25,857 bases of DNA from a virus. The DNA lies in IMG/VR virus record IMGVR_UViG_3300013285_000067, positions 1 to 25,857 of that record; one strand, given 5' to 3'. The notes under the pieces are model-generated. The model worked only from the letters and a program-made list of their open reading frames with translations. It was not told the DNA's origin and did no database searches. Positions 11,428 through 25,857 of the stretch are shown here, in pieces (position 1 is the stretch's first letter; every line of letters begins with the position of its first letter). Both the position numbers and the translations under genes were made by a program.

Positions 11428-12174
11428 TTATCGTGGTGCAAACTCTTGTTGCAGTTTGATATTGTCGAAAAACTCTTTTTTAGCACCTGGATCAGTTTTA
11501 AACGATCCTGTAAGTACTGTTGTTTGTGTTAGGCTACTATGTGCCATAATACCTCGATTCTCACAGCAACCATGTGTTGCCTGAATGTAGACAGCTACAT
11601 TTTCGGAGTCTGTTGCTTTACGGATCTCCCTAGCAATATCATTACAAAGTTCCTCCTGGAGAGTTCCTCGTCTAGCACACCACTGTGCGATACGGGTGTA
11701 CTTAGATAAGCCAATAAGTTTTTCTGCGGCGATGATGCCAATGTAAGCGACACCGCTAACGGGCTGATGATGATGACTGCACATAGAGCGCAACTCGCTA
11801 CGTACCACCAACATGCCTTCATATCTATCCTCACTATCATTTGGAAACGCCGTAGCGTCTGGTGCTGGTTCATATCTTCCTGCCATTACTTCGTTAAAGT
11901 ACATCTTAGCAAGACGTCTTGCGGTACCTCGGCTATTAGGATCGTTTTCACGATCAATAAGTAAACAGTCTAACACTTTTTCAAATGCTAGAGTTGTTTC
12001 GTCGATTAGTTGTTCTTTCATTTTGTCATCAATGTATTCACTGATGTTATCTCCAGCCCAGAATCTTTTACCATTTCGTTTCATTACAAAACCCAAATAG
12101 TTGTGTGCTGTACCTTCTTGATATCCGCTGTCGCCGTACATGGCGTCAAGTGCTGTTTCGTTTTTATTTGTCAT
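11428..12174 (-). CDS. folE: GTP cyclohydrolase I
   Basis: Converts GTP to 7,8-dihydroneopterin triphosphate, the first step towards folate and 7-deazaguanine (queuosine-type) compounds. The signature is clear: NDPNSRGTARRLAKMYFNEV (79-95), SMCSHHHQPVSG (130-141), LIGLSKYTRIAQWCARRGTL QEEL (153-176), AVYIQATHGCCENRGIM (194-210). By alignment to E. coli FolE from memory, zinc ligands are C132, H135 and C203, and catalytic H134 and H201 are kept; E111 of E. coli is replaced by S133. The N-terminal ~60 residues are longer than the catalytic core needs. ATG at 12174 with its own promoter (12195-12223). No queD, queE or queC gene lies in the window. Confidence 0.93.
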   Translation of the reverse strand: MTNKNETALDAMYGDSGYQEGTAHNYLGFVMKRNGKRFWAGDNISEYIDDKMKEQLIDETTLAFEKVLDCLLIDRENDPNSRGTARRLAKMYFNEVMAGRYEPAPDATAFPNDSEDRYEGMLVVRSELRSMCSHHHQPVSGVAYIGIIAAEKLIGLSKYTRIAQWCARRGTLQEELCNDIAREIRKATDSENVAVYIQATHGCCENRGIMAHSSLTQTTVLTGSFKTDPGAKKEFFDNIKLQQEFAPR

Positions 12175-12194: not shown

Positions 12195-12223
12195 ATAATA
12201 CAGGATTATTTAGGTTCTGTCAA
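12195..12223 (-). promoter_or_regulatory. Sigma70 promoter for folE
   Basis: Minus strand TTGACA at 12223-12218, 17 bases, TATTAT at 12200-12195. The -35 box lies within the last codons of the upstream dehydrogenase gene. Predicted start near 12188, giving a leader of about 14 bases before the folE ATG at 12174. Confidence 0.75.
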
Positions 12224-13171
12224 GCGTAATATGGTATTTTTCTTAACGGCTGCATCCAAAACATTTAATGGCACTCCTTGCTGTTCTGCAAATTTTAATA
12301 GCGCACTAGTGTCTTTGGGAAAACATGCTCCACCAAATCCAAACGAACCATCTGGTCCAGGTACTTGCATATGGCTAGAACCAATTCGTTTGTCTGCTTT
12401 GATCATGTGAGCAATCTTATTATAATCTAAGTTACACTTATCAGCCAACGATTTGAGTTCGTTCATAAAAACAACCTTGGTACTCATAAAACAATTGATG
12501 GCATATTTGGCTAAACTTGCTTCACCAATTGAACACATGGATATATTTTTTAAATTAGTCTGTCCTAATTTAATGATACGTTCTGCTTCACGTTTGTAGG
12601 CTGCAACCCGCCCGCCAATAATTACAAACTCTCCGCTAGCATAATCACGTACAGCATTGGCCGCAGTTAGAAATTCTGGAGCATGAATTAGGTTAGGGTA
12701 TTTTTCATTTAATTTTTCATACACATCTGGCGGAGCAGTGCATTTGCTAATAACCACCCCGTGATAATTCATACGTGACAATTTATCTAAAATATCTTCT
12801 AAAATACTGGTATCACAAGTTCCATCATCATCTTGTGGAGTTGGTACACAGATAAACACGCCATCGCATTCTTCTAAATCTTGGTATGTATGTTTACCTC
12901 TTTTTGGGTCGCTGTCAATTAATTTTAACAAGCAATTCGATTCCATTGACTCTTTAATAGCATTGCCCACAAATCCTAAACCAATGATGCCTACTGTGGA
13001 TTCGTGTAACATATTATTAAAAGTATAAGTTGCTCCGCCTGCGGTTCCAGGCATAGGCATTGTTATAGATTGACCCTGTGGGCCAGTTAATCCAGCTGTT
13101 AGTTGCCCAAGCTGTGCGGTGCTTAAAGCGCCGATGGTGACTTTGCCAGTTGGTAAATTATTTGTGCTCAT
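12206..13171 (-). CDS. UDP-glucose/GDP-mannose-type 6-dehydrogenase, C-terminally short (321 aa)
   Basis: Family members oxidise C6 of a nucleotide-sugar to the uronate using two NAD+. Rossmann motif GIIGLGFVGN (61-70), strand-end acid KLIDSD (83-88), VFICVPTPQDDDGTCD (105-120), SKCTAPP (142-148), HAPEFLTAANAVRDY (163-177), SLAKYAINCFMSTKVVFMNE (219-238) and the catalytic cysteine block GFGGACFPKD with C283. The usual C-terminal UDP-binding domain (about 100-120 residues) is absent: the protein stops after the central helical domain. Residues 1-57 are an extra Gly/Thr/Gln-rich segment (GALSTAQLGQLTAGLTGPQG). So it may be inactive alone, act on a different substrate, or need a partner. ATG at 13171; own promoter at 13194-13222. 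Confidence 0.85.
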   Translation of the reverse strand: MSTNNLPTGKVTIGALSTAQLGQLTAGLTGPQGQSITMPMPGTAGGATYTFNNMLHESTVGIIGLGFVGNAIKESMESNCLLKLIDSDPKRGKHTYQDLEECDGVFICVPTPQDDDGTCDTSILEDILDKLSRMNYHGVVISKCTAPPDVYEKLNEKYPNLIHAPEFLTAANAVRDYASGEFVIIGGRVAAYKREAERIIKLGQTNLKNISMCSIGEASLAKYAINCFMSTKVVFMNELKSLADKCNLDYNKIAHMIKADKRIGSSHMQVPGPDGSFGFGGACFPKDTSALLKFAEQQGVPLNVLDAAVKKNTILRLTEPK

Positions 13172-17853: not shown

Positions 17854-17869
17854 TTTGCCAATTAGTCAA
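17841..17869 (-). promoter_or_regulatory. Strong sigma70 promoter for the 17601-17834 gene
   Basis: Minus strand TTGACT at 17869-17864, 17 bases, TATAAT at 17846-17841. The -35 overlaps the stop codon of the phosphatase gene (17862-17864). The expected start is about 17834, the first base of the ATG. Confidence 0.85.
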
Positions 17870-18374
17870 CCGGATTGTTTGGGGTAATAAATCCCCACTC
17901 GTTAGTACTTCCGTGTACATCGTAGGCCTTTTCTTCGCTGTCGTAAGTCCAACCTAGCACCCGCATCATTTTATGTTTGACCAACAAGTTAGGTGACCTG
18001 AACCGTTCGCAATCATCAAAGCCCATCATAACTCCAACTTCTGCTACTGCACCGCTACGACAAATACCTGCATGGCAATGCACGACCACATTCATGCGAT
18101 TTTCTTTTGCGTGGTGCAACAGGTGAACAAGCTGTTGTGCCTGCTCATCTGTAATGGCAAACTCACTCAAATCAATCATCTTGCCATCGCCAGTATTGGT
18201 CATACCATCTTCTTCAATATCCAAGAATGTAAATTGATGGACTTCTTTGAATTTGTGCTTAGGCGTAGGGAATGCCATATCGTGATCAGAAATTTGAATC
18301 AGCATACTATTTTCACCACATGCATGGTGCTGGCCCTTTGCCACATTTTCTAACGGAATATTTTCAATCCACAT
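17862..18374 (-). CDS. Cysteine-based (PTP/DSP-like) phosphatase (170 aa)
   Basis: Residues 97-108 (VVHCHAGICRSG) contain the HCx5R signature: nucleophile C100 and phosphate-binding R106, with S107. This marks the protein-tyrosine/dual-specificity phosphatase superfamily. An upstream TFLDIEEDGM segment offers D52 or nearby acids as general acid. Length (~170) fits a small single-domain DSP. Substrate could be a phosphoprotein, a sugar phosphate or an RNA 5' end (as in RNA triphosphatase-like DSPs). It overlaps the P-loop kinase by 11 bases, so the two are co-made. ATG at 18374. Confidence 0.8.
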   Translation of the reverse strand: MWIENIPLENVAKGQHHACGENSMLIQISDHDMAFPTPKHKFKEVHQFTFLDIEEDGMTNTGDGKMIDLSEFAITDEQAQQLVHLLHHAKENRMNVVVHCHAGICRSGAVAEVGVMMGFDDCERFRSPNLLVKHKMMRVLGWTYDSEEKAYDVHGSTNEWGFITPNNPVD

Positions 18375-18846
18375 ACCAAATCTCCTTAAATCCTTCTTCT
18401 AGGGTAGGCTCGTCCCAGCTAGCAATCATACTGGCAATAACATGCTCAGGAATAATCTTTCCAGACTCCCACCGACTCTCCAATCGACGCATAAGTTCTT
18501 TATGCTCAGGTGTACGAAACACCACAGCAATATGTTCATAGCCAGGTAGTGCGTTAAACTTACGAGCCCTGCTTGCGATAGTTGTACTAGTTTGATCCCA
18601 TACAATGTCTAACTGAAATGCACATGCCATATTAACATTAACCATCATTTGTTTGACAGCAGTGGGCATGTATTCTGTGAATACTTCACTGTAGGTCTTA
18701 CCCTGATCTTTTGCATATCCTTCAACATGGTCGTCGGTGGAAACATACTTGTGATCCTTTTTGTCTTCACCGAGCCATTCTTGGTTCTTGTACCAGGTAC
18801 TTTTACCTGCACCTGGTACTCCAATAAGTTGATAACACTTAGGCAT
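18364..18846 (-). CDS. P-loop kinase, polynucleotide-kinase-like (160 aa)
   Basis: Residues 9-17 (GVPGAGKST) form the Walker A loop; KYVSTDDHVEGYA (33-45) has the D38/D39 position matching the catalytic aspartate in T4 Pnk-type kinases. IVWDQTSTT (81-89) resembles the Walker-B-like D-T-N segment, and RRLESR (120-125) gives lid arginines. It should phosphorylate a nucleic-acid 5'-OH or a small molecule. Size is that of the kinase domain only; T4 Pnk's C-terminal phosphatase domain is absent, but a separate phosphatase gene follows. ATG at 18846 overlaps the upstream stop (TAATG). Confidence 0.85.
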   Translation of the reverse strand: MPKCYQLIGVPGAGKSTWYKNQEWLGEDKKDHKYVSTDDHVEGYAKDQGKTYSEVFTEYMPTAVKQMMVNVNMACAFQLDIVWDQTSTTIASRARKFNALPGYEHIAVVFRTPEHKELMRRLESRWESGKIIPEHVIASMIASWDEPTLEEGFKEIWYVD

Positions 18847-19565: not shown

Positions 19566-20435
19566 TTATCCACGCTTCATACAAGTTGTACGAGCCATGC
19601 TTTGCCAATTAGTCGGGAAACTCTTACGCAAGTCTGCCAACTTAAGAACCATACGCAAACTCAATTCACGCAATTTACCTTTGTTAGCATCAATGAACTC
19701 AACTAATTCATGTTTGACAATATCAACATTATCAAAATCGTATTTGTCCAACATACCATCTGTGATGATCTGCTTGATTCGGAGGATCTTCTCACGCTCA
19801 GTATCCATCTGCAAATCAATATAGTGGCAACGTGACTCAAGTGCATCCAAGTGATCACGCAACTTTTTAGAACGAACGTGTTCAAACTTGATGTTGGTAA
19901 TAAAGATCGCCGCACCTTTAAATTCAAAACGATCCGGAATGCCTTCGCTACGCAAAATACGGCTGTCAGTATTCCAGCTAATAAATCGACGGTCGCTACT
20001 ATCCAACGCACCTTTCAAAATATTCAAGGAAAGGTCTTCCATCAAAATGCTATCGCAGTCATCAAATACAACTACGTTGCCTTTTTCAGAGAACTCGTAC
20101 AGTTTAGCATACAAACCAATAGCACTCATGGCACCTTTAACAACTTCAAACTTGGGTTTCTTTTCAGCCAGTGTATTGAACAAATCTGACTTTTGAAGCT
20201 GTGTTTCAACTCCAAAAGATTTACCAACCCCAGGAGGTCCACTAACGATCATAGCACGGACATTACCTTCTTTGACTGCACGGGTCATGCTATCAAGGAT
20301 TTCAAAACGTTCACGCAACCGTGACATAATTTCTTCGTCTGTTTCCTGAGCAACCTCAGCTTCACGTGCTTTGATAGCATCTGTATCAAACTCGAGAATA
20401 TTTGATCCAGTAGATGATTTTGCGGATTTAGCCAT
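19566..20435 (-). CDS. AAA+ ATPase (289 aa)
   Basis: ATP-driven remodeller of the AAA+ class. Walker A SGPPGVGKS (65-73), Walker B VVVFDDCDS (121-129), sensor-1-like IFITN (177-181), and an arginine-containing stretch ALESRCHYIDL (198-208). This order is typical of MoxR/RavA- or DnaC-like phage ATPases. A Ser/Lys-rich N-terminus and a basic C-terminal helix (LADLRKSFPTNWQ) flank the core. The partner is not apparent. ATG at 20435 with GGAG at 20444-20447 and a perfect promoter at 20468-20496 imply strong early expression. Confidence 0.88.
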   Translation of the reverse strand: MAKSAKSSTGSNILEFDTDAIKAREAEVAQETDEEIMSRLRERFEILDSMTRAVKEGNVRAMIVSGPPGVGKSFGVETQLQKSDLFNTLAEKKPKFEVVKGAMSAIGLYAKLYEFSEKGNVVVFDDCDSILMEDLSLNILKGALDSSDRRFISWNTDSRILRSEGIPDRFEFKGAAIFITNIKFEHVRSKKLRDHLDALESRCHYIDLQMDTEREKILRIKQIITDGMLDKYDFDNVDIVKHELVEFIDANKGKLRELSLRMVLKLADLRKSFPTNWQSMARTTCMKRG

Positions 20436-20739: not shown

Positions 20740-22893
20740 TTACTTTGGTGCAAATTTAGTAAGAGGAATGTCTGCCGCACAGGTACAAAAGTTACGGTCA
20801 CATGTGATAGTAGCAGTTGGAACAACAAATGTGCCCAAATAGATATTGCCCAAACTACCTCCCACACGACACGTGGCACGATGCACATCACCGTCCCAGT
20901 TAATCATTAGGCTTTCGATGCCGGCGTTACATGACCACCCTTTGTATTGGTTTAAATGTAATTTGATAACATCGTTAGCATGATATTGTGTTGTATCGTC
21001 AATTAGTGTGTTTGGATGTACTGTGGCTTCACTACTTTTAATCCATGCCAAATCATTTGGTTCATATTTCATGTCATCAAATAAATCATGATCACCTTCA
21101 GTCCAACGTATTCGTCTAAGGATATAAGGTATACCTTCAAGCCCTAACAACCAAACTACATTTCTTACCAAATTTAAATGATTATGAATAGCCATAACAT
21201 GCACTAAGATTTCTTTATCAAATACCTTGTTAACTTTTTTAATAGTTTCAAAAACTCTAAAATAATCAAATTCAAAATGCAAACTAAAAATTATTTGATC
21301 AACTGGCAGGGCTGAATAAAAATCAGCAGGCATAGTTCCGTTAGTAGTCACGCTAATCCAACTCACGCCTTTAGCTCGGCAATAGGCAACCAGCTCTTTA
21401 AATTTAGGATGTACACATGGCTCCCCACCGGTAAAACTTAATCTTATAGGCTTATCCAATTTAACTAGTTGATCCACCGTGTGTTTTAATAATTCTATAT
21501 CTGTGTGAGGACTCGAGTTATCATGGATCTCTGTGGGGCAGTAGCTACAATCGTAGTTACAACGTTTGCCAAGATTCCATTCAATTTTAATGGCACCGGC
21601 CTCATCGGAGTTTAGGCTGGAAACTTTGTTTATGATATATGGTTTAAACTCTGGAGTGTTGTCTGTAAAACTTTGTTTTCGCGTTCTATCCAATCTACGG
21701 TTAAACTCTACACAATCCTTCCAGAGGTTAACATTGATGTTGGGCTTAAAGTAATTTATTACGCTGTATATTTGACTATTTGTGATATCTTTTAATTCAG
21801 GATGCTCCTTGACTAGTTTATAATTTGGCACCTTACCGAGGGCAATCTGTAATCGTTCAATGGCCAATCTTTTTAATTTGACTGGTAATACTTGTATGTT
21901 GAGTACTGAAGGGTAGTTGACTAGGTTGATATAAAATACGATTCCTAACTCATCCAAGAAGTATTCCATCATTTTATCGAGTATTAGTACATTACTAACT
22001 TGTACGGCCACTGCTCCGACAATACGACTAACATTGGGAATAGTCTGTATTTTTTTAATATTTTCAACCAGCTCGTCCCACTTGGCATTGCCTCGAATGT
22101 ACTCGTAACTATCACCCAATCCGTCTATACTTACATTGACTGCAATACTTTTAAATGCTGGCCAATAAGCAAACACATTACGCTTGCCTTTACCCAAACT
22201 GGTTAAATTGGTAGCGTACTTGATTTCAATTTGATGAGCGTAAGGCTGTAACATTTCAAGTATACGATAGTGTGTGGGGTCTGTTAAAGGTTCGCCACCC
22301 GCAAACTCCAATCGCCTAAAGTAGGGAATTAACCGTTCAAAATTTTCCCACCAAATTGGATCATCACTAAACGCATCCAAATAAGGAGTTCCACTGGCCT
22401 TGATTTCTTTAATAGGCTGAATCATGAAACTTTGTTCTTTAATATAGAATTCCTCGATTTCATCCCAGTCGTCCCAACTAGTGCTGTCCATAGGATGGCA
22501 CATTCTGCATTTTAAATTACACAGGTTGTTTAACTTTAATTCCATTGTAGGAAGCTCAAATGGCATCGAGTAGTCATCTCGCATTTTGGTCCATGCATTG
22601 GGATACAAATTAATTCGAGCTTCTGGAATTTGACCTTTTAAATGGCGTTGTCTAAGACTTTCTATGTTTTGGTCTTCTAATGTAAAGCAAGATATACATT
22701 CTGGAGGACGTTCATCATTCAGCACCTGTTTGCGTAGTCGCTTCATGTTGTCGTTGTTCCAAATTTCCTCTAGGCTTTGTTCTTTAATATTACCAATATT
22801 CCAACTGCGGCAACAAGGTTTGATGCCGCCGTCTTCTCTGGTTGCAAGGCCAGTAAACGGGTGCATACAAAATGTTTTACTTTTTGGGATCAT
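20740..22893 (-). CDS. Tandem double radical SAM enzyme (717 aa)
   Basis: Two complete radical SAM cores in one chain. Core 1: CNLKCRMC (C125, C129, C132) and the SAM-binding FAGGEPL (197-203). Core 2: CNYDCSYC (C445, C449, C452) and FTGGEPC (487-493). Both motifs bind a [4Fe-4S] cluster that cleaves SAM to a radical. Extra cysteines at C9, C27, C28, C66 and C69 (CISC) form a twitch/SPASM-like auxiliary site at the N-terminus; C655, C675, C698, C703 and C705 form another near the C-terminus, so 3-4 iron-sulfur clusters are plausible. Such enzymes commonly modify peptides or sugars. ATG at 22893, head-to-head with the 2OG-oxygenase gene. Related 'twitch-domain radical SAM' proteins occur in aquatic phages; substrate unknown. 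Confidence 0.88.
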   Translation of the reverse strand: MIPKSKTFCMHPFTGLATREDGGIKPCCRSWNIGNIKEQSLEEIWNNDNMKRLRKQVLNDERPPECISCFTLEDQNIESLRQRHLKGQIPEARINLYPNAWTKMRDDYSMPFELPTMELKLNNLCNLKCRMCHPMDSTSWDDWDEIEEFYIKEQSFMIQPIKEIKASGTPYLDAFSDDPIWWENFERLIPYFRRLEFAGGEPLTDPTHYRILEMLQPYAHQIEIKYATNLTSLGKGKRNVFAYWPAFKSIAVNVSIDGLGDSYEYIRGNAKWDELVENIKKIQTIPNVSRIVGAVAVQVSNVLILDKMMEYFLDELGIVFYINLVNYPSVLNIQVLPVKLKRLAIERLQIALGKVPNYKLVKEHPELKDITNSQIYSVINYFKPNINVNLWKDCVEFNRRLDRTRKQSFTDNTPEFKPYIINKVSSLNSDEAGAIKIEWNLGKRCNYDCSYCPTEIHDNSSPHTDIELLKHTVDQLVKLDKPIRLSFTGGEPCVHPKFKELVAYCRAKGVSWISVTTNGTMPADFYSALPVDQIIFSLHFEFDYFRVFETIKKVNKVFDKEILVHVMAIHNHLNLVRNVVWLLGLEGIPYILRRIRWTEGDHDLFDDMKYEPNDLAWIKSSEATVHPNTLIDDTTQYHANDVIKLHLNQYKGWSCNAGIESLMINWDGDVHRATCRVGGSLGNIYLGTFVVPTATITCDRNFCTCAADIPLTKFAPK

Positions 22894-22940
22894 GGTAATA
22901 TTTACCCTAGTTAAGTGGGCATATAAATATTACTATGATC
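22888..22940. repeat. Inverted repeat spanning both start codons of a divergent pair
   Basis: Arms 22888-22904 and 22924-22940 (17 bases each, one mismatch) are reverse complements, separated by a 19-base spacer that itself has CCC and GGG at its ends. Each arm contains TAAATATTAC immediately followed by one base and the ATG of its gene. The symmetry places the same control site before the radical SAM gene and the 2OG-oxygenase gene. Confidence 0.8.
22922..22929 (+). promoter_or_regulatory. T4-late-type box at the divergent junction
   Basis: Perfect TATAAATA on the plus strand, ending 5 bases before the ATG at 22935. Transcription from such a box would begin at or next to that start codon, giving a leaderless or nearly leaderless mRNA. 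The mirrored position for the radical SAM gene has GGTAAATA, a weaker match. Confidence 0.55.
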
Positions 22941-23606
22941 AAGCCAACCAACTATAAAATTGACCCCGGCATATTTAAAGAAGCATGTAATCAATTACCC
23001 AAAGGTCAAATGAAAACAACTATCAATCAACCTACTGGTGATTTTTTTTATGACTTGTGGATATTAAAAGATGAATATAAAAATACAGTTTGGCAAACCA
23101 TTTATGATTCACTGCCAGCAGTTAAGGGTGAAGCACGAATAATAATTTTAGATCCTGGACAGTGTTACCAAAGCCATGCTGACATAGATGATAGATATCA
23201 TTTAAACATTTTGGGTGATGAAAGTTTTTTAATCGACCTAGTGCGTGAGCGTATGCATAGGCTAGCGGCTGATGGTATATGGTACGATATGGATGCCGGA
23301 TGGCATCATACTGCCGCAAACTTTGGCAGGACTTGTAGGATACAACTAGTAGTTAGAAAATTACTCACTAGACAAAAATTAACTGACCCTATTCGAGTTA
23401 AACTTAGTCCAGTAACACCACATATTGATTCTAGATTTATTTTTGATCATACAATAAGTCCTTGGCTTAACCTTACAAATAAATCTAAACGTCTTTCAAA
23501 TTTTAAATTTGATGGTCAAACAGTATCAATGGATATAGACCAACAGTCTTTTGACACCTTAAAGGAAATTGTACCCGATGGATTCAAATTGGAATTACCT
23601 GTATAA
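22935..23606 (+). CDS. 2OG-Fe(II) oxygenase / Asp-Asn hydroxylase-like protein (223 aa)
   Basis: Residues 70-91 (IILDPGQCYQSHADIDDRYH and onward) and 116-139 (WYDMDAGWHHTAANFG then RTCRIQLVV) give a likely HxD (H81, D83) iron site, a distal His (H124 or H125) and a 2-oxoglutarate-binding Arg (R132 or R135). This order fits the double-stranded beta-helix oxygenases of the aspartyl/asparaginyl hydroxylase kind. The C-terminal 80 residues (SPVTPHIDSRFIFDHTISPW and on) are an extra domain. It heads the plus-strand trio and shares a control region with the radical SAM enzyme. Target (peptide, protein or small molecule) unknown. Confidence 0.7.
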   Translation: MIKPTNYKIDPGIFKEACNQLPKGQMKTTINQPTGDFFYDLWILKDEYKNTVWQTIYDSLPAVKGEARIIILDPGQCYQSHADIDDRYHLNILGDESFLIDLVRERMHRLAADGIWYDMDAGWHHTAANFGRTCRIQLVVRKLLTRQKLTDPIRVKLSPVTPHIDSRFIFDHTISPWLNLTNKSKRLSNFKFDGQTVSMDIDQQSFDTLKEIVPDGFKLELPV

Positions 23607-24249
23607 AATTGTAGATGGGAATCCGTTAGTAACTACTAATTTGCTTTATACTCCTACGGTAAATGATGAACAAACTGTCATGTGTATGTCATGGGATAGC
23701 AAGAGTGAATATCAAAAAGATCGAGCATTGACTGATGAGTTGGTTGAATTCTTTTTTGATAGAGAAGTACACTACCTAGAAAAGTTTCAAGGTTATGATT
23801 GGGCTCCAGAGATTTTAGATATTAATATGCTTACCAAGCGTATTTGTATTAGATGGAATGGTAGCAGTCTCAATCAAATCATCTATGGGGGCGGCAATTT
23901 AGATCAGGCATGCCCTTCTTGGAAATCACAACTCTATTCTATGTTATCTGATATAAAAAATGAGGGGTGTATTAAAAATGCGTTATACCCACATTGTTTT
24001 TACATAGGCAGTGACGGCAAGTTAAAGACTATTGATTTTTATTCTTGCATCGACGAATCTAATCCTTTCATAGACTACAAACAAATAGAAGGTATGATTG
24101 GAACACAGTCAGTTGACAGATTTACATTGTCTACTACCAATGGAAAGATTGATTTTAGAAAGTTTTTTAAAATTACCATGTTGGAACATTTAAACAAAAC
24201 TTGGCCAAATAATCCGTTTCCTGAATTTTACAAAAAATTATATGATTAA
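23578..24249 (+). CDS. Kinase-like (protein/LPS kinase fold?) protein (223 aa)
   Basis: ATG at 23578 (MDSNWNYLYKIVDGNPLVTT) has AAGGA 11 bases upstream; an earlier TTG at 23569 is less likely. The C-terminal half contains LDIKNEGCIKNALYPHCFYI then GSDGKLKTIDFYSC, resembling the catalytic loop and metal-binding IDF of kinase-like folds (H/D...N.l...G.lK.IDF). REVHYLEKFQGYDWAPEILD matches the helix-C to strand region of small-molecule kinases. No Gly-rich P-loop is clear, and the catalytic Asp appears replaced, so it may be a pseudokinase. Overlaps the oxygenase gene by 29 bases and the next gene by 8. Role uncertain. Confidence 0.6.
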   Translation: MDSNWNYLYKIVDGNPLVTTNLLYTPTVNDEQTVMCMSWDSKSEYQKDRALTDELVEFFFDREVHYLEKFQGYDWAPEILDINMLTKRICIRWNGSSLNQIIYGGGNLDQACPSWKSQLYSMLSDIKNEGCIKNALYPHCFYIGSDGKLKTIDFYSCIDESNPFIDYKQIEGMIGTQSVDRFTLSTTNGKIDFRKFFKITMLEHLNKTWPNNPFPEFYKKLYD

Positions 24250-24745
24250 TTGGAAAAACATTATAGCAACCCTTGATACTAATCGTAGTAGAGATATTAC
24301 GGTTGATCCGGCTGTTTGGGATTTGTCTAATCCTGAATATGAGAAAATATTGACATTATGGAAATCACATAATTTTAATACAGACAGTGTAAAATGGACC
24401 AACTATTATTTAGACTATAAGATACAAGAGTTGTTTGCAGAGCAAATGAATTGTGTACCCCTGCGCAGTTGGATCAGTAGAATTGATCCAGGATATATGA
24501 CTGGATGGCATTGGGACGTAGATGAAAATGAATCTCTTTACCGTAGTGCAGGAGACCTTGTTAGATATACTTGTTTTATAGATACCCCCAAATTGGGACA
24601 TATCTTTCTAGTTGATGACCAATATTACTTTAATATGCCACACGGTAAAATAATCAAGTGGAACAAGTACAACGATTGGCACTTGGGAACTAATGGCGGG
24701 TTAGAACCGTTTTATATGTTTCATCTAATAGGTATCAATCGGTAA
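24242..24745 (+). CDS. 2OG-oxygenase-like protein (167 aa)
   Basis: Residues 77-95 (WISRIDPGYMTGWHWDVDEN) carry HxD at H90/D92; the distal histidine is H147 in NKYNDWHLGTNGGLEPFYMF, and the final HLIGINR contains a possible co-substrate-binding Arg. The order strand-HxD-strand-strand-H is that of the cupin/JmjC-like iron enzymes, though the fit is looser than for 25335-25850. ATG at 24242 overlaps the kinase-like gene by 8 bases, and its stop converges on the sulfotransferase stop with an 11-base overlap. Possible peptide or glycan modifier (inference). Confidence 0.6.
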   Translation: MINWKNIIATLDTNRSRDITVDPAVWDLSNPEYEKILTLWKSHNFNTDSVKWTNYYLDYKIQELFAEQMNCVPLRSWISRIDPGYMTGWHWDVDENESLYRSAGDLVRYTCFIDTPKLGHIFLVDDQYYFNMPHGKIIKWNKYNDWHLGTNGGLEPFYMFHLIGINR

Positions 24746-25334
24746 ACGTATATTTGTAAAGATCTATATCTCGTTCAAATTGCTGTTCAACAAATTTCCT
24801 AGTTGTAGTATTATAATACGATTGATATTTGCTGTGCCCTGATACATATAAAAATGGCAAAGGTCTATCACATTTAAAAATGTTTTGAATTTGGGTGAAC
24901 CCGTCTGCTAATTTTTCGTAACGTATTAATAAATCGACTGGAACATCTAACCATTGATGCTGTTCAGTTAATCCAGTAAACCAGTACCCGTCTGGGTTTT
25001 TAAAGTTGTCCAGGTTTAAAAGCCAGTCATTGAACTTAGGAAAGTTTTCCGTGGTAATGTTGTTTAGGGTTAACCAACCACTGCCTTCACGCATGGCCAC
25101 TACCTTTAAATAGAAATACCAACTTACCATTCTATCCCACGGATTGCGTACAACCGCAAATGAAAAGTTATTACTGCGATTTTCTAAGACAGTAGAATGT
25201 TTTGGATGCTCTTCCCATTTTATCTGGTCACTGTTGCCTCGATTGTTTTCAAGCCAATGTAATATACTTGTACCAGCAGTCTTGGGTATGTGTACAAAGG
25301 TGATATTCTTTTCACCGGTTATATACAATGACAT
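24735..25334 (-). CDS. Sulfotransferase family 2-like protein (199 aa)
   Basis: Transfers sulfate from PAPS to a sugar or other hydroxyl. PAPS-binding 5'-PSB loop FVHIPKTAGTSILHWLE (13-29, with K18, T19 and T22), and the 3'-phosphate block FAVVRNPWDRMVSWYF (58-73; R62, S70). The expected acceptor-side helix follows. Length (~200) is short against typical 250-320, but both signature blocks are intact. ATG at 25334 follows the stop of the third oxygenase by no spacing. Its stop overlaps the stop of the plus-strand gene. Sulfated acceptor unknown; a cell-surface or virion glycan is plausible. Confidence 0.85.
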   Translation of the reverse strand: MSLYITGEKNITFVHIPKTAGTSILHWLENNRGNSDQIKWEEHPKHSTVLENRSNNFSFAVVRNPWDRMVSWYFYLKVVAMREGSGWLTLNNITTENFPKFNDWLLNLDNFKNPDGYWFTGLTEQHQWLDVPVDLLIRYEKLADGFTQIQNIFKCDRPLPFLYVSGHSKYQSYYNTTTRKFVEQQFERDIDLYKYTFTD

Positions 25335-25850
25335 TTAATCCACCGTGGTAATTTGCAAAGTATATCTAGTCCTGTATCCAATGTTAACTACTCCATGATA
25401 ACACATAGGGTCGCTCCACTTGTACATATCACCGGTTTGGTAGTTGGACAGCATTTGATCTCCCCAAGTAAAGATGTGGCCAGGTTGCCAATCTTGTAAG
25501 AACATTGTATAACGTTTGGGATTTTTTACTTCAATTAAATGCGGGTCAATATGCATGGACTGCATTTGACCTGGATACAATTTAATAAACCACCACAGTT
25601 GCCGTCTATCATCACCTGCAATAACTGGCAAGTCAAATTTAATCATTCCAGGCGTTTTAGAATTGAACTGTTGAAAATTATGATTACGATGTGCATATCC
25701 TTCTCTAGCTCGTTCCCTTGCTTCATCTAATGTAGGGTGACCTCTCCAACGATCTGGTTGCCATACTGGCACAGTATCACCATCGTTATCTTTTAGATAT
25801 TGCATGAGCTCTGGAGTAATCCAGTCAGCGTAATTTTTAACAAATTCCAT
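25335..25850 (-). CDS. 2OG-Fe(II) oxygenase (171 aa)
   Basis: The best 2OG oxygenase match of the window. IKLYPGQMQSMHIDPH (89-104) has the iron ligands H100 and D102; WSDPMCYHGVVNIGYRTRYT LQI (145-167) gives the distal H152 and the 2-oxoglutarate-binding R160 or R162. GHIFTWGDQMLSNYQTGDMY (124-143) is the usual strand pair between them. ATG at 25850 is preferred to the TTG at 25856 because it begins at the conserved hydrophobic start (MEFVKNYADW); the window edge prevents checking the ribosome site. I recall such genes from several T4-like marine phages. It is co-directional with the sulfotransferase. Confidence 0.85.
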   Translation of the reverse strand: MEFVKNYADWITPELMQYLKDNDGDTVPVWQPDRWRGHPTLDEARERAREGYAHRNHNFQQFNSKTPGMIKFDLPVIAGDDRRQLWWFIKLYPGQMQSMHIDPHLIEVKNPKRYTMFLQDWQPGHIFTWGDQMLSNYQTGDMYKWSDPMCYHGVVNIGYRTRYTLQITTVD

Positions 25851-25857
25851 TTTCAAA

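Follow-up and report, generated by a model that had tools for sequence, protein, structure and literature searches.

A double radical SAM, oxygenase and sulfotransferase cassette as the possible edge of a late-expressed tailoring island in T4-like phages

What does a virus do with a double radical S-adenosylmethionine (rSAM) protein, three 2-oxoglutarate (2OG) oxygenase-like proteins, a kinase-like protein and a sulfotransferase, all encoded side by side? The question is raised by the last 5.1 kb of the IMG/VR virus record IMGVR_UViG_3300013285_000067, in which these six genes are found; the window in the following is the whole of this record (25,857 bp), and its right contig end cuts the cassette. 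A sequence-only reading had proposed a phage-borne system modifying virion or host-surface molecules, with neighbourhood analysis and structure prediction as checks. The reading favoured here, to which we give a probability of roughly 0.45, is that the cassette is the edge of a late-expressed tailoring island of T4-like phages, which is related to the pelagimyophage host recognition cluster and builds and decorates a carbohydrate-type adsorption structure. The parts of the cassette are given below (F and R family numbers are labels of this analysis).

20740–22893, minus strand: fused double rSAM protein, 717 aa, with N-terminal twitch/SPASM domain, rSAM core 1, core 2 and C-terminal Cys-rich auxiliary domain
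21616–22893, minus strand: R1 half of the fused protein, approximately residues 1–426, NF033640 N_Twi_rSAM
20740–21615, minus strand: R2 half, approximately residues 427–717, PF04055 core plus C-terminal Cys-rich domain, own start codon lost
22894–22934, no strand: putative bidirectional T4-late-type promoter element, function read from the sequence
22935–23606, plus strand: F3, predicted Asp/Asn-hydroxylase-type 2OG oxygenase, H81xD83...H125...R135
23578–24249, plus strand: F4, protein-kinase-fold protein, probable pseudokinase, alternative TTG start at 23569
24242–24745, plus strand: F1 copy 1, 2OG-Fe(II) oxygenase fold, H90xD92...H147
24735–25334, minus strand: 3'-phosphoadenosine 5'-phosphosulfate (PAPS)-type sulfotransferase, PF03567, motifs HIPKTAGTS and RNPWDRMVSWY
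25335–25856, minus strand: F1 copy 2, divergent second member of the 2OG family, reaching the contig end, start uncertain

The partly divergent layout that had been noted earlier is real: the rSAM gene and F3 point away from each other across 41 bp, and F3, F4 and F1 copy 1 are three overlapping genes running opposite to the rSAM gene.

Judged by the gene content of its relatives, the cassette forms the border of an island that is much larger. When the fused rSAM protein was used as a query, 36 loci were obtained, and all of the longer relatives in IMG/VR (20/20) carry 6–15 rSAM (PF04055) genes per contig, which fall into six orthologous families that recur (R1, R2, R5, R3, R0, R4) plus F2. 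The usual gene order is F5 F6 R1 R2 facing R5 R3 R0 F2 R4. Because the first loci had been found via an rSAM gene, co-occurrence was retested from the non-rSAM anchors F3 and F2 (best 80 loci kept, which share ancestry and hence are not fully independent). Among loci of at least 10 kb, rSAM genes are present in 67/67 found via F3 (mean 4.6) and in 33/33 found via F2 (mean 4.5), so that the neighbourhood analysis yields conserved co-occurrence. The island also holds genes for a pyridoxal phosphate (PLP)-enzyme-like protein (F5), a PP-loop ATPase (F6), a methyltransferase-like protein (F2), a short-chain dehydrogenase/reductase (SDR), an amidinotransferase-like protein and a carbamoyltransferase; since no PDB relative was found for the F5 and F2 profiles, these two names rest on motifs read by eye. 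Such islands are themselves already known, but a six-rSAM core of fixed order with a promoter element was not found in the literature searched.

That two rSAM cores lie in one chain, as claimed from the sequence alone, is borne out. N_Twi_rSAM (NCBIfam NF033640) matches residues 5–419 with 350.5 bits against a cut-off of 170, covering the R1 half end to end at twice the cut-off, and a second core (PF04055, E 4.3e-21) follows at residues 440–539. The SPASM/twitch domain PF13186 is N-terminal, at residues 9–69. C125, C129 and C132 of the first core are invariant among relatives, as are the CxxxCxxC and GGEP motifs of the second core in 15 R2 homologues. NF033640 proteins resemble the R1 half, whereas in the window R1 is fused to a second complete rSAM domain. 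The R1 half is the ortholog of L002:5127-6431 (81% identity), and in 24 relatives R1 and R2 are adjacent genes overlapping by 8–59 nt (8 in most) around TATGTATAA, where the stop of one gene meets the ATG of the next. In the window, the two halves share one frame owing to a small insertion, and the second start is lost (TATATCATAAACAAAGTT instead of TATGTATAAAGTT); this change is not a single-base homopolymer error, though it may still stem from an assembly error. Read in this way, the one-chain double rSAM protein is an exceptional, local fusion of two genes, and the fusion together with the overlapping, coupled genes suggests that the R1 and R2 products may work together. In L021, L022, L023 and L027–L030 a gene of 267–311 aa (F24 or F114) is inserted between R1 and R2. 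It should be noted that aligning the fused protein with both half-genes placed R2 wrongly onto R1, and that the ratio of nonsynonymous to synonymous substitution rates (dN/dS) of the rSAM halves is unusable, dS being saturated.

The most unexpected part is the predicted leaderless, bidirectional late element between the two gene groups. TATAAATA occurs once on the plus strand of the window, at 22922–22929 and 13 nt before the ATG of F3, and a mirrored variant, GGTAAATA, lies at 22906–22899 on the minus strand, likewise 13 nt ahead of the rSAM start codon. The element, often CATGAAATATTTA-N-TAGTAGCATATAAATATTTCATG in relatives, stands ahead of genes from nine or more families in 39 contigs; with start codons 12–13 nt away it is also found in L011, L017, L020, L068, L107, L193 and others. 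An ATG-started open reading frame begins exactly 12–13 nt past TATAAATA at 44/79 distinct island sites, compared with 4/305, 2/160 and 10/120 for control octamers, the last of which (TAAATATA) has part of its sequence in common with the element; shifted ATAAATAT (41/143) coincides with it almost completely and hence is no control. Outside the island, 360 kb of the same phages contain 15 TATAAATA sites, none with that spacing (0/15), and with a variant first base the numbers are 10/60 outside versus 64/137 inside. The spacing is thus clustered in the island but also occurs outside it, and shared descent inflates all these site counts.

In T4 late promoters the TATA box runs from −13, roughly a turn ahead of the start (PMC2988020). 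With this geometry, transcription from the island element would begin at the ATG and yield a leaderless late mRNA. The start codon of F3 is supported by its first Met, which is invariant in 20 sequences. From this spacing we infer that the island genes are expressed late as leaderless mRNAs; if true, this would be an expression mode for which no description was found for T4-like phages in the literature searched. As a separate observation, L030:3811-4026 and relatives (F22) encode a phage translation initiation factor IF-1 (PF01176, E 3e-23), present in 24/80 of the F2-anchored loci and in several of them beside R4 at the island edge. This factor might bear on how leaderless mRNAs are translated.

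The three HxD...H-type proteins of the sequence-only reading belong to two families. In F3 the residues H81, D83, H125 and R135 of the 2OG-Fe(II) oxygenase motif are invariant in 20 diverged homologues, 13 of which match PF05118 Asp_Arg_Hydrox (E ≤ 0.01); F3 of the window stays below the gathering score (16.1 versus 22.6 bits). The F3 profile matches the β-hydroxylase 7v4f in the PDB (E 5.7e-20), and F3 is predicted to be an Asp/Asn-hydroxylase-type 2OG oxygenase. The two other proteins are paralogues within F1, in which H90, D92 and H147 are invariant in 39 sequences. The AlphaFold2 (AF2) model of F1, with a predicted local distance difference test (pLDDT) score of 95.6, has the double-stranded β-helix of 2OG oxygenases: it matches 3dkq with VIA Z 12.4 (2.7 Å, 123 residues) and 2OG oxygenases including PHD2, prolyl 4-hydroxylase (P4H), AlkB and AspH at VIA Z 10.5–12.4, so that the oxygenase architecture sought by structure prediction is found. 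Foldseek alone ranked cupin proteins and AspH together. A further conserved family, F7 (e.g., L027:16969-17772), has invariant H177-x-D179 and H233 and is probably another 2OG oxygenase of the island.

For F4 structure prediction gives kinase architecture (AF2 model, pLDDT 93.6). The model aligns with the IRAK3 pseudokinase at VIA Z 13.5 (3.4 Å, 193 residues), and the profile matches a protein kinase at 7.6e-5. Of the earlier term "kinase-like" the fold therefore stands and catalysis probably does not: a catalytic HRD-type Asp is not conserved in the F4 alignment, in which only E63, K133 and P138 are invariant, and the catalytic-loop stretch reads K-x-A/S-L/M-Y/H-P-x-x-F. Since this Asp lacks conservation, F4 is probably a pseudokinase and is better called a kinase-fold protein. 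Its dN/dS is 0.10; the alignment is too weakly conserved to serve as a scan query. The PAPS sulfotransferase was correctly named: the protein matches PF03567 Sulfotransfer_2 with 38.7 bits (cut-off 22), its PAPS-binding motifs HIPKTAGTS and RNPWDRMVSWY can be read from the sequence, and it matches a galactose-3-O-sulfotransferase PHROG (E 1e-17).

To which phages does the island belong? Two long relatives carry the gene for the T4 capsid protein gp23 (E 5e-81 and 8e-84), and in G012 the genes that come after the island encode a UDP-sugar dehydrogenase, F11 proteins, fibre-like proteins, a 4637-aa protein, a gp6-like protein and gp25 (the gp6 and fibre identities were read by eye). Fibre-like genes thus adjoin the island in G012; on the window contig no structural genes were recognised. 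A search with the neck protein PF11649 gave no signal anywhere and is uninformative. Among named phages no DNA-level match to the cassette was found, and tblastn with the fused rSAM (R1-R2; 50,697 records) and with F3 found no match either. The only good match in bacterial genome contigs is L041 (contig NZGL01000008.1), in which the core relatives are collinear as one operon. Its candidacy as a bacterial locus was rejected, as the contig carries gp23 and is a T4-like phage binned into a metagenome-assembled genome (MAG); the MAG is filed under Gammaproteobacteria and has gp23 on three of its contigs. L042 and L043 appear to be no more than generic rSAM relatives.

Further inward in the window, three genes give the context of the cassette:

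19566–20435, minus strand: AAA-type ATPase (phrog_1250), the first gene outside the island, with the same flank order in L002
14005–15459, minus strand: NodU/Nol-type carbamoyltransferase, of a family also present in the Mosig host recognition cluster
12206–13171, minus strand: UDP-glucose/GDP-mannose dehydrogenase-like protein, of family F16, which also flanks islands in relatives

In the last of these, some 55 additional residues at the N terminus, among them a collagen-like GPQGQS stretch, precede the Rossmann motif. Next to it lies a GTP cyclohydrolase-like gene (phrog_2197, 11428–12174), for which no queuosine-pathway partners were recognised among the window genes scanned. At 17862–18846 a dual-specificity-phosphatase-like gene stands beside a P-loop kinase-like gene, an order retained in L002.

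Among known systems the closest is the pelagimyophage "host recognition cluster", which includes radical SAM cassettes (PMC7029224). Like the island of the relatives with gp23, it belongs to T4-like phages; it is a hypervariable region located between VrlC and the neck genes and beside tail-fibre genes, much as the island of G012 lies beside fibre-like ones. Cultured Pelagibacter phage Mosig EXVC030M has, between its tail fibres and VrlC, matches to the hidden Markov models of R0, R5, F1, F2, F5, F9, F12, F15, F58, F65 and F94; genes for Asp/Arg-hydroxylases, carbamoyltransferases, desaturases and methyltransferases, many of them homologous, are common to cluster and island. The differences are that the rSAM genes matched in Mosig are of the R0 and R5 types alone (none of R1, R2, R3 or R4), that no sulfotransferase or kinase-fold gene was recognised there, and that its late-type motifs mostly lie 16–59 nt from the ATG rather than 12–13 nt. 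The T4-like environmental virus TARA_ERS488813_N000010, known here by description only, resembles the island relatives in having many rSAM genes in one genome: it has 12, reported as iron-sulfur users, and the passage on them describes no core, order, promoter or pathway (PMC5332604). Campylobacter phage CP220 (Firehammervirus) has a smaller cluster in which several homologues of R0, R5 and R6 stand side by side with F19-type amidinotransferase and sugar-transferase-like genes; in the stretch searched, neither an R1-R2 pair nor matches to F3, F4 or F1 are present. T4-like Vibrio phage KVP40 has R1-like rSAM genes and a QueC-like gene, but only three rSAM genes in all, at about 28% identity, and no oxygenase or kinase-fold partners were recognised.

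What, then, is modified? The main rival to a glycan target is tailoring of a peptide or protein in the manner of ribosomally synthesized and post-translationally modified peptides: the rSAM enzymes and oxygenases would modify a virion protein, which would then be sulfated by the sulfotransferase; the likeliest targets are the tail fibres or the large structural proteins next to the island. SPASM/twitch rSAM enzymes commonly mature peptides, the R1 profile matches SkfB and that of R2 YydG, and F3 and F1 share their folds with the peptidyl-residue oxygenases AspH, PHD2 and P4H; the fibre-like neighbours in G012 and the late-type promoters would also fit. The matches to peptide maturases are, however, no better than those to other enzymes, the PP-loop, carbamoyltransferase, UDP-sugar dehydrogenase and glycosyltransferase genes would be superfluous, and no precursor-peptide gene was recognised, although no search aimed at one was made. 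On balance we consider a peptide target rather unlikely. An island that makes a modified base for DNA, comparable to phage deazaguanine or thymidine hypermodification, would account for the GTP cyclohydrolase gene, weak QueE-like matches, the PP-loop ATPase F6 in relatives, the QueC-like gene near the R1-like genes of KVP40, a QueD-like one near the CP220 cluster, and the fact that the closest match of F3 is a hydroxylase from nucleoside antibiotic synthesis. It is quite improbable all the same, as the cassette families scanned include no TET/JBP-type oxygenase, thymidylate hydroxymethylase or base-exchange enzyme, known routes offer no role for the sulfotransferase or for so many rSAM paralogues, and late timing is odd for a nucleotide precursor.

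Nor do we expect the product to be a small molecule or cofactor (a signal, toxin or siderophore-like compound) acting for or against the host with surfaces not involved. The PLP-like, amidinotransferase-like, SDR, class-III aminotransferase, methyltransferase-like, rSAM and 2OG genes do resemble secondary-metabolite clusters, but no genes for carrier proteins, non-ribosomal peptide or polyketide synthases or export were recognised, and neither the fibre-side location nor the late-type promoters would be called for, which makes this very unlikely. Finally, accessory genes could have accumulated by chance in a hypervariable hotspot and share no pathway. Gene content does differ strongly between relatives, the sulfotransferase family is present in few loci, and the shared promoter element could merely mark exchangeable cassettes. 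But the six rSAM families and F2 keep their order across diverged contigs, and in the marine contig L041 the core relatives form one operon; fortuitous accretion is therefore the kind of explanation we would hardly expect to hold.

Decoration of the host surface or virion is favoured because of the late-type promoters, the fibre neighbours and the homology to the host recognition cluster. In the proposed mechanism, T4-type late transcription would fire both ways from the 41-bp element late in infection. R1 and R2, one chain in the window and two coupled genes elsewhere, would form a complex performing radical C–H chemistry on the substrate, the 2OG oxygenases (F3 and two F1) would hydroxylate it and the sulfotransferase would cap it, with F4, devoid of the catalytic Asp, as a binding or scaffold subunit. 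The target would be a carbohydrate-type structure on the infected host envelope or the virion that governs adsorption. The leaning towards a glycan comes from the sugar-linked genes of the window (UDP-sugar dehydrogenase, carbamoyltransferase, glycosyltransferase), the PHROG match of the sulfotransferase, the closest PDB relative of the twitch domain (BtrN, a sugar-alcohol dehydrogenase) and the top Foldseek match of F4 (WbdD, an O-antigen kinase-methyltransferase), each weak alone; the sugar genes of the phage favour a glycan target slightly over a peptide one. Late and leaderless expression, an R1-R2 complex, a glycan substrate and a role in adsorption are thus what we infer.

Several points weigh against this picture. 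The window itself carries none of R3, R5, R0, R4 and F2, the contig ending there, nor a capsid gene, and its glycan genes lie 5–14 kb from the cassette. The BtrN match is limited to the auxiliary domain, WbdD is ahead of many protein kinases by a small margin, and the matches of the R1 and R2 profiles to SkfB and YydG (peptide maturases), viperin-like enzymes, a lipid synthase and MoaA are all similarly weak, so that sequence leaves the substrate class unfixed. Late expression also suits modification of the virion or of debris better than early superinfection exclusion. The sequence-only reading is partly supported: modification of virion or host-surface molecules by a phage-borne system is the leading reading on account of co-occurrence and folds, with a glycan as the candidate target. 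Going further, the six rSAM enzymes and the oxygenases might be a dedicated multi-radical assembly line for a complex modification of fibres or host glycans, with late bidirectional leaderless promoters as exchangeable cassette borders, a proposal that we regard as doubtful.

Marine T4-like phages with many radical SAM genes were noted earlier, without a pathway. With the fixed-order core of six rSAM families, the probably interacting pair revealed by a fusion and the shared late element, what had been a loose collection of accessory genes becomes a defined system, and the cultured relatives Mosig and CP220 make the purpose of so many phage radical enzymes testable.

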